DNA from: Roseibium algicola
GTDB taxonomy: Bacteria; Pseudomonadota; Alphaproteobacteria; Rhizobiales; Stappiaceae
Length of the DNA stretch: 64,000 bases
Assembly: GCF_001999245.1 (NCBI RefSeq)
Contig: NZ_CP019630.1
Span: 4,555,001 to 4,619,000 of the forward strand
Direction of reading: 5' to 3'
The notes beneath the pieces are model-generated. The model saw only the letters and a program-made list of their open reading frames with translations. It was not told the origin of the DNA and did no database searches. The position numbers were made by a program, and so were the translations under genes. This document shows positions 24,670 through 40,792 of this stretch, piece by piece (the first letter of the stretch is position 1; each line of letters starts with the position of its first letter).

Positions 24670-25641
24670 ATGGCGTTTCCCGATCTGCTGGAGCAGTATC
24701 CGGAGCTTGCCGAAGGTATCGGCGGCAAGCTGACGGCCAACCAGCCACTGTCTGCGGTCACGTGGTTCCGCACTGGTGGTCCCGCGCAGTTGATGTTCCA
24801 GCCGGCGGATGAAGACGACCTTGCTGCCTTCCTGAAAAAGCTTCCGAAAGATGTTCCGGTGCTGCCGGTAGGGCTGGGTTCCAACCTGCTGATCCGTGAC
24901 GGCGGCCTGAAGGGCGTTGTCATTCGCCTGAGTGCAAAGGGCTTCGGTTCCATTGAGGAAGTCGGCGGTAACAGGTTGAAGGCAGGGGCGGCCGTGCCGG
25001 ACAAGCGTCTGGCGGAAGCTGCGGCCAAGGCCGGTCTCGGCGGTTTTGCGTTTTACACAGGTATTCCTGGCGGTCTGGGCGGTGCGCTGCGCATGAATGC
25101 GGGCGCTCACGGCACGGAAACCCGCGAGCGCATGGTGGAGCTGACCGCGGTCGACCGGAACGGCAACCGCCACGTTCTGACGAATGAGGACATGGGCTAT
25201 GCCTATCGCCACTCGGAGGCTTCGAAAGACCTGATCTTTACCTCCGCCGTCTTTGAAGGCGTGCCGCAGGACGAAGCCTCGATCCGGCAGGAAATGGCCG
25301 ACGTTGTCGCCCACCGTGAACGGGCGCAGCCGATCCGTGAAAAGACCGGCGGATCCACCTTCAAGAACCCGCCCGGTACGTCGGCATGGAAAGAGGTCGA
25401 CGCGGCAGGCTGCCGTGGCCTGACCGTCGGCGGAGCGCAAATGTCCGAAATGCATTGCAACTTCATGATCAATACCGGAACGGCCACCGGACATGATCTC
25501 GAACTGCTGGGGGAAACCGTGCGCGCGCGCGTGCTGGCGCACAGCGGCATCCGCCTGGAGTGGGAGATCAAGCGCCTGGGTGAATTCGGTTCAGAGGGGG
25601 CTATCGAGCCATTTCTGGGCAAGGAAGGGGAGGCTGCCTGA
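24670..25641 (+). CDS. murB: UDP-N-acetylenolpyruvoylglucosamine reductase MurB
   Basis: A 323-residue FAD enzyme that reduces UDP-GlcNAc-enolpyruvate to UDP-MurNAc with NADPH. FAD-binding motifs are [18 protein letters not shown] near residue 75 and [18 protein letters not shown] near 135. The C-terminal catalytic region includes [10 protein letters not shown] (with the type I active-site serine) and [11 protein letters not shown]. An AAGGAGG site 7 nt ahead fixes the start. Its stop shares one base with the ddl start (TGATG). Confidence 0.96.
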
Positions 25642-35097: not shown

Positions 35098-37374
<2,277 letters not shown>

Positions 37375-37435
37375 GGCGCTCCTACCTTCTCTATCTCTGT
37401 TTTGCGAAGATAAGGCAGGGGCGGCATGATGCACG

Positions 37436-37597
37436 GGCTCCCTTGTTTACTGGATCCCCGCCTGCGCGGGGATGACAAGAGAGAGGCTTCGGGACATGGC
37501 TTTGCTTCTTGTCATCCTGGTTTGTCGCGTAGCGGCAAGACCGGGATCCAGTAACCCCTGTGCTCGCTGGAACCACAAACCTCTGGGGTTCCTGAAA
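37436..37597. repeat. Palindromic repeat element, copy 1 (left of GIY-YIG gene)
   Basis: This 162-bp unit is matched without gaps by copy 2 at 38030-38191, with six mismatches (about 96% identity), in the same orientation. Its core (37448-37553) is a nested palindrome: TACTGGATCCC / GGGATCCAGTA at the ends, GGATGACAAGA (37470-37480) / TCTTGTCATCC (37507-37517) inside, and a small CCCCGC-CTGC-GCGGGG hairpin between. It resembles dispersed extragenic palindromic elements of alphaproteobacteria. No coding potential is seen. Confidence 0.93.
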
Positions 37598-37666
37598 CCG
37601 TTATCGGCAATGCCAAATCAAAAGCACTAACGTATATCCGGGAAGAATTTCAACGAAGGCTCCACG

Positions 37667-37963
37667 TTGCACCTCGATCAGCAATACTATGTCTACATTC
37701 TTGGAAGCGGACTGGGCGGCACGCTCTACGTCGGGGTGACGAATGATCTGTTGGGCAGGGTTTCGCAGCACCGTGAAAGCATCGGAAGCCAGTTTACCGC
37801 GAAGTATGGCGTGCATCGGTTGGTGTATTACGAAGTTCACGAGGAAATCGAGTGGGCGATCAAGCGGGAAAAACAGCTCAAACGCTGGAATCGTGCCTGG
37901 AAGATCCGTTTGATCGAAGAACGGAATCCAAACTGGGACGACCTGTTTGCTAAACTGGTTTGA
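37667..37963 (+). CDS. GIY-YIG family nuclease
   Basis: A 98-residue single-domain protein of the UvrC-N/GIY-YIG fold. The two core motifs are YYVYIL (GIY) and LYVGVT (YIG), followed by the conserved Arg in GRVSQHR, then YGVHRLVYYEVHEEIEWAI and EKQLKRW with the late catalytic-region Glu and Asn-Pro (EERNPNWDDLF). The fold is shared with UvrC, homing endonucleases and restriction enzymes; these small stand-alone proteins are common in alphaproteobacteria but have no established role that I know. The only start available is TTG at 37667, 7 nt after AAGG; an in-frame stop at 37628 limits the N-terminus. The gene lies between two direct copies of a palindromic repeat. Confidence 0.87.
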   Translation: MHLDQQYYVYILGSGLGGTLYVGVTNDLLGRVSQHRESIGSQFTAKYGVHRLVYYEVHEEIEWAIKREKQLKRWNRAWKIRLIEERNPNWDDLFAKLV

Positions 37964-38353
37964 CACTTTTGCGTCGCTTCGATCGTTTGCTGCGCATGGC
38001 TTGTTCTCCCGCCACTTGGTCAAGCAACAGGCTCCCTTGTTTACTGGATCCCCGCCTGCGCGGGGATGACAAGAGAGAGGCTTCAGGGCATGGCTTTGCT
38101 TCTTGTCATCCCGGTTTGACGCGTAGCGGCAAGACCGGGATCCAGTACCCCCTGTGCTCGCTGGAACCGCAAACCTCTGGGGTTCCTGAAATCTGTCGCG
38201 GCTTTGTCAAAGGAGGCGGCCTCACGCAGTTGCCGGTTCAAATAAGAAAAGCCCGCTTCTTGTCCCCACCAAATCGGTCATTCCTGCCTCGCCAGCGCCG
38301 GCATGTTGCTATATTGTTCTCAAAACAAGCGCTTGAAACCGGACCAGTAAACC
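37964..38353. other. Intergenic region between the GIY-YIG gene and uvrD
   Basis: This 390-bp gap is mostly filled by copy 2 of the palindromic repeat (38030-38191). The last 160 bp before uvrD probably carry its promoter; no further gene or hairpin is supported. Confidence 0.6.
38030..38191. repeat. Palindromic repeat element, copy 2 (right of GIY-YIG gene)
   Basis: Direct copy of the unit at 37436-37597, offset exactly 594 bp with no insertion or deletion. The palindrome core is 38042-38147. In the 20 bases past the right end about 11 still match the equivalent bases of copy 1, so a decayed longer repeat is possible. Left flanks do not match. Confidence 0.93.
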
Positions 38354-40792
38354 ATGACCGACCCGGACGGGTACGACGATTCCTTTGACGATCCATTCCA
38401 GCCTATCGGCACGCGGGCGGAGTCCGCGCCTGCTCCCGTGCGGCCGCAAGGAGGGATCGCGGCCAGGGCGATGGCGGCACGGCGGGCGCCGGACTATCTG
38501 ACGGGGCTGAACCCGGAGCAGCGGCTGGCGGTGGAAACAACCGAAGGGCCGGTTCTGGTGCTGGCTGGTGCCGGTACGGGCAAGACCCGCGTGCTGACAA
38601 CACGCATTGCGCATATCCTGGCAACCGGCTTGGCGCGGCCGTCCGAAATTCTGGCTGTCACGTTCACCAACAAGGCTTCGCGCGAGATGAAGGAACGCAT
38701 TGCCGGTTTTGTCGGCGGCAATGTGGAAGGCATGGCGTGGCTCGGCACGTTCCATTCCATCTGTGTGAAGATCCTGCGCAAGCATGCCGAACTTGTCGGC
38801 TTGAAATCGTCCTTCTCGATCCTCGACACCGATGATCAGATCCGCCTTATCAAGCAGATCATCCAGGCCGAGGGGCTGGACGACAAGCGCTGGACGGCCA
38901 AGGCCTTTGCCGGGATGCTGGATGGTTGGAAAAACCGGGCTCTGGGACCAAAGGATATCCCGGAAGGCGAGGCGCGGGCGTTTGCCAACGGCAAGGGCCG
39001 AAAGCTCTACGAGGAATATCAGGAGCGTCTGTCGATCCTGAACGCGGCCGATTTCGGTGATCTGCTTTTGCATGTCATCACGCTGTTCAAGACGCAGCCG
39101 GATGTCCTCAAGGAATATCAGCGCCGCTTCCGCTACATGCTGGTGGACGAATATCAGGACACCAACATCGCGCAATACCTGTGGCTGCGCCTGCTGGCCC
39201 AGGGCAACCCGAATGTCTGCTGTGTCGGTGATGATGACCAGTCGATCTACGGCTGGCGCGGCGCGGAAGTCGATAACATCCTGCGCTTCGAACATGACTT
39301 CAAGGGCGCTACCGTCATTCGCCTGGAGCGCAATTACCGTTCGACCAGCCATATCCTGGCTGCCGCATCCCACCTGATTGCCTTTAACGAAGGCCGGCTC
39401 GGCAAGACGCTGTTCACGGATTTCGAGGAACCCGACCACGACCTGGTGTCGGTGGCCTCCGTCTGGGACAGCGAAGAAGAAGCGCGTACCATCGGCGACG
39501 AGATCGAGACCCTTCAGTCGCGAGGTCATTCGCTCAATGAAATGGCGGTTCTGGTGCGGGCATCCTTCCAGATGCGCGAGTTCGAAGACCGGTTTGTCAC
39601 GTTGGGGCTTAACTACAGGGTCATCGGCGGTCCGCGCTTTTATGAGCGCATGGAAATCCGCGATGCCATGGCCTATTTCCGCTGTGTCGCGCAGCCTGCG
39701 GACGATCTGGCGTTTGAGCGCATCGTCAACACGCCGAAGCGCGGTCTTGGCGATGCGACGCTGAAACTGGTCCATGGTGTTGCCCGGGCAGAGCGTATTC
39801 CACTGATGCAGGCGGCAAGCCAGCTTATCGATACCGAAGAACTGAAGCCGAAGCCGCGTAACGCGCTGAAGTCCGTGCTCGACAACTTCGAGCGCTGGCG
39901 GCGTCAGCTTGACCAGATGAAACACACCGAACTGGCGGAAATCATCCTCGATGAGAGCGGCTACACCGAGATGTGGCGGCAGGACCGGTCGGCGGAAGCG
40001 CCGGGACGCCTCGACAACCTGAAGGAACTGATCCGGTCTATGGACGAATTTGAATCCATGGCCGGTTTCCTGGAGCACATTTCCCTCGTCATGGACCGGG
40101 ACAGCGCGGATGCGACCGACGCCGTATCCATCATGACGTTGCACTCGGCCAAGGGGCTGGAATTCGACACGGTGTTCCTGCCCGGCTGGGAAGAGGGGCT
40201 GTTTCCCCACCAGCGCGCGCTGGATGAATCCGGTCGCGCCGGCCTGGAGGAAGAGCGCCGGCTGGCCTATGTCGGCATCACCCGGGCGAAGAAACGCGCA
40301 AAGCTCTATTTCGCGTCCAATCGGCGAATTCACGGCCTCTGGCAGTCAACCGTTCCCTCACGGTTTCTGGACGAGCTGCCGCCGGACCATGTCGAGATTG
40401 CCGAAGCTTCGTCCAGCTATGGCGGCTATGGCGGTGGCGGCTACGGACCGTCCCGGTTCGACAGTCATGATCCCTTCGACAAGGGCAGCTACTCCACGCC
40501 GGGTTGGCAACGTGCGCAGCGTGCCAAGCAGTCCTCCAGCGGATTTTCCGATGGCGGCGGCCGTGGGTATCAGTCCGCGCGGCAAAAGCGTCAGGGGCCG
40601 TTGACCATCGAAGGAGAGCTGGTGGCGAAATCCGTCAGTGACACGCCATCGCAATTCTCTCTGGGTGAACGCGTGTTCCACATCAAGTTCGGCTATGGCG
40701 CCATCAAGTCGATCGAGGGAAACAAGCTGACGATCGACTTTGAAAAGGCAGGGGTGAAGAAGGTCATCGACAGTTTCGTCGAACGGCACTGA
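38354..40792 (+). CDS. uvrD: ATP-dependent DNA helicase UvrD/PcrA
   Basis: An 812-residue superfamily 1A helicase for nucleotide-excision and mismatch repair. Motifs in order: Q motif LNPEQRLAV, Walker A AGAGTGKTRV (about residue 75), Ia AVTFTNKASREMKER, II LVDEYQDTN, III GDDDQSIYGWRGA, IV VIRLERNYRST, V TLHSAKGLEFD and VI YVGITRAKKRAKL. After the motor (from about 690) comes a Gly/Tyr/Ser-rich low-complexity stretch (SYGGYGGGGYG and on), then a C-terminal Tudor-like domain (GERVFHIKFGYGAIKSIEG). The first 50 residues are an acidic/Pro-rich extension. Function firm; UvrD versus PcrA naming is convention. Confidence 0.95.
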   Translation: MTDPDGYDDSFDDPFQPIGTRAESAPAPVRPQGGIAARAMAARRAPDYLTGLNPEQRLAVETTEGPVLVLAGAGTGKTRVLTTRIAHILATGLARPSEILAVTFTNKASREMKERIAGFVGGNVEGMAWLGTFHSICVKILRKHAELVGLKSSFSILDTDDQIRLIKQIIQAEGLDDKRWTAKAFAGMLDGWKNRALGPKDIPEGEARAFANGKGRKLYEEYQERLSILNAADFGDLLLHVITLFKTQPDVLKEYQRRFRYMLVDEYQDTNIAQYLWLRLLAQGNPNVCCVGDDDQSIYGWRGAEVDNILRFEHDFKGATVIRLERNYRSTSHILAAASHLIAFNEGRLGKTLFTDFEEPDHDLVSVASVWDSEEEARTIGDEIETLQSRGHSLNEMAVLVRASFQMREFEDRFVTLGLNYRVIGGPRFYERMEIRDAMAYFRCVAQPADDLAFERIVNTPKRGLGDATLKLVHGVARAERIPLMQAASQLIDTEELKPKPRNALKSVLDNFERWRRQLDQMKHTELAEIILDESGYTEMWRQDRSAEAPGRLDNLKELIRSMDEFESMAGFLEHISLVMDRDSADATDAVSIMTLHSAKGLEFDTVFLPGWEEGLFPHQRALDESGRAGLEEERRLAYVGITRAKKRAKLYFASNRRIHGLWQSTVPSRFLDELPPDHVEIAEASSSYGGYGGGGYGPSRFDSHDPFDKGSYSTPGWQRAQRAKQSSSGFSDGGGRGYQSARQKRQGPLTIEGELVAKSVSDTPSQFSLGERVFHIKFGYGAIKSIEGNKLTIDFEKAGVKKVIDSFVERH

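Follow-up and report, generated by a model that had tools for sequence, protein, structure and literature searches.

Two large superfamilies of REPs are distinguished by Di Nocera et al. 2013 (PMC3733652), one of them partnered by RAYT and the other, the CGTC superfamily, having no associated transposase gene. CGTC REPs, as characterized there, comprise (i) a CGTC, TGTC, or CCTC tag, (ii) a stem of 8-9 bp that starts with AT, (iii) a loop of 4-5 bases, and (iv) a CCA tail; they form dimers, occur mostly in alphaproteobacteria, and include the dRS3 repeats of Neisseria and the RPE-4/6 repeats of Rickettsia. The same text places REPs often at gene ends and considers that they may act in RNA. GIY-YIG domains are found in homing enzymes according to PMC1564403, and PMC1839093 describes three COG2827 genes of unknown role in Caulobacter, one of which has an SOS box.

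The window, which is the whole 64-kb stretch of the Roseibium algicola genome analysed here, contains a small GIY-YIG gene lying between two matching pairs of tagged hairpins, with the following features.

35122..37374, + strand: ORF of the left neighbour, given for context, which we take from its sequence to be ligA (NAD-dependent DNA ligase)
37436..37597, + strand: left copy of the flanking repeat (162 bp), a REP dimer whose tags face inward, with a conserved right-hand tail
37450..37477, - strand: REP A1, with a TGTC tag, 8-bp stem ATCCCCGC, 4-base loop, and CCAG tail, read on the minus strand
37510..37551, + strand: REP B1, with a TGTC tag, stem, long arm, and CCAG tail; tag outward, the REP closest to the gene on its upstream side
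37510..38071, no strand: proposed minimal unit, consisting of a tag-outward REP, the gene, and an inverted tag-outward REP, as suggested by the tag test and the hairpin coordinates
37667..37963, + strand: standalone GIY-YIG nuclease gene, 98 aa, TTG start (PF01541, E=1.3e-15)
38030..38191, + strand: right flanking repeat copy, 162 bp, in the orientation of the left copy, with six mismatches
38044..38071, - strand: REP A2, like A1; nearest downstream of the gene, tag outward
38104..38145, + strand: REP B2, like B1
38354..40792, + strand: gene of the right neighbour, given for context, which we take from its sequence to be a pcrA/uvrD-type helicase

Alignment bore out the initial annotation, which had described two 162-bp direct copies with six differences, no gaps, and an offset of 594 bp; outside the copies, similarity is lost within about 20 bp. 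The nested 106-bp palindrome that had also been described is present in both copies (37448-37553 and 38042-38147; TACTGGATC...GATCCAGTA), but instead of forming a single hairpin it folds into several, arranged as a cloverleaf that a joining stem closes, the folding energies of the two palindromes as RNA being -71.1 and -71.9 kcal/mol. Each copy is a pair of tagged hairpins, the tag is TGTC in all four, and REP A reads TGTC, ATCCCCGC, GCAG, GCGGGGAT, CCAG in tag-first order. By their TGTC tag, AT stem start, CCA tail, dimeric arrangement, and dispersal, the window repeats are assigned to the CGTC REP superfamily. REP A fits the published description fully (ATCCCCGC, GCAG, CCA), whereas REP B fits it in part, with a long arm (42 nt in total) instead of the 4-5 base loop.

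Apart from these four hairpins, the 64-kb window holds one weak tagged match (24701-24735) and no others. Flank matching was scored by comparing the left 350 bp with the right 350 bp, with a pass at 25 or above, a threshold chosen after the first scores were known (results at other thresholds were also computed); the window gene scored 147.5, and the maximum among 105 further positions in its 19-kb stretch was 14.0. BLAST found the window repeat in 22 pieces across its own 6.65-Mb genome, two of which are the window copies and several of which are paired REPs; by coordinates, the other 20 are all more than 1.5 kb away from any small GIY-YIG gene of that genome. An Rfam search gave no match above the gathering score (best FtrB, E 0.22, 24.1 bits, with 66 needed). 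RIME and Bru-RS are repeats of Rhizobiales. In the window, the frames 37960-38388 (+) and 36951-37478 (-) cross REPs and give peptides such as LDPRLRGDDKRE; spurious ORFs of this kind may be annotated as genes.

The 98-residue protein matches PF01541 with 57.9 bits against a cut-off of 22.6, and Tyr10, Tyr21, Arg31, Glu68, and Asn87, which we take to be the catalytic set of a GIY-YIG nuclease, are invariant in an alignment of 12 relatives; the active site is probably intact, and nuclease activity is predicted. A TTG start is plausible for the window gene because its orthologues use the same codon position, with TTG in two genomes (G002 and G026) and ATG in three (G023, G013, and G018). This agrees with the initial annotation, which had placed a 98-residue GIY-YIG gene with a TTG start between the copies. 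The gene appears to be under strong purifying selection, with a dN/dS of 0.04-0.15 in 11 of 14 orthologue pairs, several of them near saturation and the other three lacking a finite dS. The predicted model of the protein (pLDDT 91) has as its nearest solved folds UPF0213 BH0048 (1ZG2; E 7.5e-4) and Slx1 (E 6.4e-3 for the best Slx1 chain). UPF0213/COG2827 proteins (1ZG2 BH0048, 1YWL EF2693) and Slx1 are neighbours in both sequence and fold; Slx1, by its entry titles, acts with Slx4 on branched DNA, and the titles and abstract openings of the open-licence PMC literature gave no repeat-linked role for UPF0213/COG2827. In the window's own genome, PF01541 occurs in one 662-aa uvrC-sized frame and in five small GIY-YIG genes. 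Three other identities for the window gene were rejected, namely (i) a defence gene, a PADLOC search having returned 0 matches; (ii) a phage gene, PHROG having returned a single weak match to a family with no assigned function (E 7e-4) and phage records having yielded 2 matches among 50,697; and (iii) a plasmid-borne gene, with matches in only 33 of 72,556 plasmid records, some of them chromosome-sized.

The arrangement resembles RAYT (TnpA-REP) systems and REPINs in that the gene for a DNA-processing enzyme lies between palindromes that are also dispersed as dimers. However, RAYTs are described as HUH Y1 proteins that cut at GTAG, whereas here the protein is of the GIY-YIG type and the tag is CGTC/TGTC. 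A RAYT/Y1 transposase was rejected as the mover, as PF01797 had 0 matches in the Roseibium genome, whereas the family was found in 5 of 14 control genomes; the CGTC REPs as published lack a transposase gene, and here they have a GIY-YIG gene associated with them. Judged from sequence, the system would operate in the manner of RAYT/REP without belonging to the RAYT systems, as neither of two features that define these, HUH Y1 and GTAG, is present. The initial annotation had drawn a parallel with REP and RAYT; the repeats are REPs of the CGTC kind and not of the RAYT-linked GTAG kind, and no Y1 transposase was found. Among GIY-YIG homing endonucleases, examples are the I-TevI type and the free-standing Seg type. 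The window system shares with them the GIY-YIG core, a selfish setting, and possible insertion into its own target; it differs in that a protein of about 98 aa leaves no room for a large DNA-binding extension, in that no intron or intein is seen around the window gene, and in its chromosomal location, with only the 2 phage records mentioned above. In the open-licence PMC literature, searched through best-ranked titles and abstract openings, no link between GIY-YIG proteins and REPs was found.

Matched repeats frame small GIY-YIG genes far beyond the window. All five such genes of the window's own genome pass the flank score, and the four outside the window have repeats matched on both sides, of a type that looks different from gene to gene. 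For the genus and order, 148 matches in 61 relatives were narrowed to 27 genomes, picked for few contigs and for the window lineage; the 80 stretches taken from them, none longer than 19 kb, made 83 genes together with the window. Scores of at least 25 were reached at 68 of the 83, compared with 28/8132 sliding positions in those loci, 11/1056 other ORFs, and 7/318 small ORFs, and several of the 11 control matches look like translated repeats and not genes. Measured from domain ends, which replaced ORF ends because the ORF at locus L059 runs into a repeat, 65/83 genes outrank all other positions in their locus and 72/83 are in the top 5%; with ORF ends, the figures are 61/82 and 68/82. Fifteen of the 83 fall below the threshold, among them all three genes of one genome (G009, 0/3). 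In a phylum sample of 30 loci from a draw of 299 genomes, one of the 30 being from the window's own genome, 23 pass, against a null of 7/331 pooled over 33 loci; three additional small GIY-YIG genes, which PF01541 alone detected, lack matched flanks (0/3).

A multi-phylum sample was drawn from a scan of 84,980 species genomes as the best 80 of 569 confirmed loci, of which two are Roseibium loci also in the genus/order sample and three lay too near a contig end, leaving 77. Within these best 80 of 569, a score of at least 25 was reached at 48/77 genes versus 18/4859 positions, and a score of 20 at 60/77 versus 32/4859; 59/77 genes rank first in their own locus, and 29/77 fall below 25. By record title, the passing loci among the best 80 of 569 belong to alpha-, beta-, gamma-, and deltaproteobacteria and to Omnitrophota, Parcubacteria, Moraniibacteriota, Acetothermia, Bipolaricaulota, and UBP14; no tag is visible in the Acetothermia and Bipolaricaulota repeats. 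Within the same best 80, Scalindua and Nitrospirae (24.5) and one Chloroflexi locus (20.5) lie just short of the threshold, and those of Anaerolineae, Myxococcota, Planctomycetaceae, Berkelbacteria, Kerfeldbacteria, and Kazan do not pass. In addition, a Neisseria gonorrhoeae GIY-YIG gene (L298, 3001-3279) is framed, by eye, by CGTC REPs; such Neisseria repeats are dRS3 according to Di Nocera et al. (PMC3733652), and the dRS3 family may therefore share a GIY-YIG partner.

Several individual loci deserve separate description. Tandem GIY-YIG genes, 98% and 89% identical and with repeats around each, lie in L087 (9073-10087) and L099 (9019-9857), respectively, and look like a local duplication of the unit. 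On a Planktothrix agardhii plasmid (L299, 1-6264), a GIY-YIG gene with TGTCATTCTGAG repeats lies between an MmeI-type restriction gene and the DISARM gene drmA. Near position 9028 of L059, the GIY-YIG frame reads on into its own downstream repeat, and the repeat would therefore supply the C terminus of the protein. At about 1300-1950 of L026, short tandem AGAGCTTC and CCCAGCCT units lie inside flanking repeats of the CCTC type.

The tag of the flanking hairpins is specific. With a hairpin defined as a tag, a 7-bp stem beginning with A, and a tail beginning with C, tagged hairpins stand on both sides of 42/77 multi-phylum genes versus 18/5930 null positions (best 80 of 569 loci) and of 29/82 genus/order genes versus 24/12,512. 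Three permuted-tag controls gave 0/77 each in the multi-phylum sample and 1, 0, and 0 of 82 in the genus/order sample; the CCTC tag alone scored 0/82 and 0/77 because CCTC repeats lack the stem that the test requires. The nearest hairpins are most commonly tag-outward in the multi-phylum sample (29/42; best 80 of 569 loci) and are so in 15/29 genus/order cases, those of Azospirillum lipoferum being tag-inward. Among 107 distinct tagged hairpins, stem pairs 3, 6, 7, and 8 each occur in several Watson-Crick types, and the same count gave 2, 2, and 16 hairpins with permuted tags and 1 and 5 with altered tails. The stem thus appears to be kept by paired changes, a result favoured by the count itself, which admits only hairpins with at least 7/8 pairs.

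Repeat type follows the lineage of the protein, even between unrelated sites, as judged from 68 framed genes in which pairs with under 1 kb of alignable flank were classed as non-syntenic (pairs with 1-3 kb are in neither class). Non-syntenic pairs from different genomes share a repeat type in 17/36 cases at 70-80% protein identity, 14/64 at 60-70%, 3/831 at 50-60%, 1/644 at 40-50%, and 0/435 below 40%, and the one such pair above 80% differs in type. Paralogues within one genome share a type in 0/87 cases below 60% identity and 0/5 at 60-70%, the only two same-genome pairs that do so being adjacent duplicates. A Mantel test of this co-variation gave r 0.48, a value reached in 0/2000 permutations. 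A divergent subfamily with eight framed members (L062, L068, L082, L091, L098, L109, L115, and L125) has repeats with a CATCCTGAGGA-like core, seven of them with CCTC-like tags and L082 with CGTC.

Dispersed repeats are more numerous where the gene is present, an outcome that the initial annotation had named as support. In 28 of 37 Roseibium genomes, nine of the 28 judged from one locus, the median number of dispersed window-type copies is 14.5 in the 12 genomes with that type at a GIY-YIG gene and 1.5 in the 16 without it (p=0.001); three exceptions (G025, G033, and G035), classed as lacking window-type repeats at the GIY-YIG gene, hold 14-17 copies. Across the 299 phylum genomes, at least five pattern copies occur in 27/101 genomes with the gene versus 11/198 without it (p=6e-7, with no phylogenetic correction) at a gene cut of E<=1e-10 that was fixed beforehand and near which matches may belong to another subfamily; a stricter cut of E<=1e-20 gave 24/74 versus 14/225 (p=7e-8, again with no phylogenetic correction). 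The reversed pattern had one match across all 299 genomes. Fifty of the 101 genomes with the gene have zero copies of the single pattern searched, and three of the 11 repeat-rich genomes scored as lacking the gene do have a small GIY-YIG gene.

The initial annotation had named two observations as contrary to its reading. The first, a repeat that is abundant where the gene is lacking, applies to a minority, 8 of 38 repeat-rich genomes, in which no small GIY-YIG gene was detected beside 6 to 161 pattern copies. Seven of the eight have uvrC-sized frames only (G097, G223, G112, G078, G249, G215, and G273), and the other, G203, has a partial GIY-YIG match in a 250-aa frame; G097, G223, and G112 hold 161, 116, and 43 CGTC-type hairpins, respectively. 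Loss of the partner, missing sequence (some assemblies are incomplete), or a different enzyme are possible explanations for these three. The second, GIY-YIG genes elsewhere that lack the repeat, applies to a minority, with 15/83 and, from the best 80 of 569 loci, 29/77 lacking matched flanks.

Genomic sites with and without the unit were compared at three loci, and the unit itself occurs at unrelated sites, the window-lineage gene of G020, G035, and G023 sharing 0/16, 0/16, and 0/6 neighbouring ORFs, respectively, with the window locus (the G023 contig is 6.4 kb). At the ligA-pcrA site, relatives carry (i) a window-type gene in either direction (reversed in G018), (ii) a different GIY-YIG gene with different repeats (G025), (iii) two REPs and no gene (G036), or (iv) another gene (G015), and no unit was seen on reading the sequence of this site in G019. 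Several species keep a GIY-YIG gene there, and movement is therefore not frequent. Azospirillum lipoferum 4B has the unit, with a CGTC dimer on each side, in the 617 bp that separate sufB from sufC; in A. oryzae, A. ramasamyi, and strain B510, which are 94.8-95.7% identical around the site, the sufB-sufC gaps measure 87-129 bp and contain no unit, the intergenic alignment being unreliable beyond the coding ends. In Sphingobium, a search placed the gene between fnrL and a response-regulator gene on seven megaplasmids, five of which were read; in TYG73, one of these five, the match is in two pieces. The filled site has the order outer half, gene, outer half. At the same site, TYG64 and TYG74 have one symmetric palindrome in which the outer halves of both flanking REPs are joined (one pair is changed in TYG74), and TYG72 and TYG65 have neither gene nor palindrome. 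Such a palindrome would be expected as the starting point of an insertion or as the remnant of a deletion between palindromic cores. Unit-free sites of the kind that the initial annotation had proposed to compare exist, but these comparisons are between species or diverged strains, whose flanks are too divergent to show exact insertion borders or a target duplication; a search through relatives of the LigA protein, with one genome per species, gave no clean strain-level empty site.

Taken together, these data point to a small mobile or formerly mobile unit, in which two CGTC REPs frame a dedicated partner GIY-YIG nuclease and from which the dispersed REPs and REP dimers descend as non-autonomous derivatives; we regard this as the probable reading. 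The protein would recognise the folded REP, as a hairpin or cruciform, and nick or cut it there or close by; when the break is repaired from a copy flanked by REPs, these and, occasionally, the whole gene would be duplicated. Such a GIY-YIG/REP system would parallel RAYT/REP with a nuclease of another fold. At the sequence level, this reading is grounded in the linkage across several phyla, the specificity of the tag, the pairing of each protein lineage with one repeat family, the higher number of dispersed copies where that lineage is present, purifying selection, and variable sites. The initial annotation had proposed a repeat-gene-repeat unit with no transposase of a known class, and as a recurring unit it is upheld by linkage, tag, co-variation, copy number, co-occurrence, and unit-free sites; cutting and movement we infer. 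A bolder version, on which we would put somewhat less than even odds, is that these are minimal mobile elements whose nuclease of about 95 aa recognises the framing CGTC palindromes and copies itself and the REPs by cut-and-repair, homing into REPs, and that it is the engine of the CGTC REPs, dRS3 included.

The alternative that survives best, although we consider it unlikely, is homing into palindromes: cleavage by the nuclease at the tip of a CGTC-tagged palindrome would let the gene be copied in during repair, since the outer halves of the REPs that frame it match both ends of the cut. The REPs would then be halves of a target site and not transposon ends. The Sphingobium site has the order this predicts, with the joined palindrome in TYG64 and TYG74; symmetric palindromes are rare in the fetched loci (3 distinct ones, that of TYG64 included, versus 190 asymmetric); and GIY-YIG domains are found in homing enzymes (PMC1564403). 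However, the evidence comes from a single locus, the unit-free Azospirillum sites have no leftover palindrome, and the same scar could be left by deletion between the CCCGGG cores, since their self-complementarity makes them direct repeats as well.

Improbable, in our estimate, is a domesticated host nuclease of the Slx1/UvrC kind that would clear REP hairpins or cruciforms and be kept by the host, with the REPs spreading by other means. Slx1 chains among the nearest folds (best E 6e-3), the SOS box at one Caulobacter COG2827 gene (PMC1839093), the strong purifying selection, and the repeat-rich genomes without the gene are compatible with it, but it leaves unexplained the repeat framing of most copies of the gene, the match between lineage and repeat across unrelated sites, and the several paralogues with different repeats in one genome. 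We give even less credence to a passenger role, in which the gene would be cargo of REPs moved by some other transposase, or the flanks would be terminators or attenuators silencing a harmful nuclease. A nuclease gene may need tight control, and REPs, frequently located at the ends of genes, may have a role in RNA (PMC3733652), but the flanks match each other, bear the CGTC/TGTC tag specifically, and co-vary with the protein, and small control ORFs reach the threshold in only 7/318 cases, with several of the 11 control matches looking like translated repeats. The alternative offered in the initial annotation, that a dispersed repeat came to surround an unrelated gene through chance duplication or through gene conversion, is very improbable, for although the window copies are closer to each other than to any other copy in the genome and may therefore be locally homogenised, most of the GIY-YIG genes examined, across several phyla, show the arrangement (68/83, 23/30, and, from the best 80 of 569 loci, 48/77 framed), and these counts refute it.

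In summary, returning to the mobile unit as the favoured reading, we propose the GIY-YIG family as the missing partner of the CGTC REPs. REPs are abundant in many bacteria, and PMC3733652 reports the CGTC superfamily without a partner, for which a named candidate is now available. If the SOS box of the Caulobacter COG2827 gene is general, the unit may be induced by DNA damage. If true, the proposal would give a biological setting to COG2827 genes, described in PMC1839093 as of unknown role in Caulobacter, and would place a second, unrelated nuclease fold behind a REP-type system.
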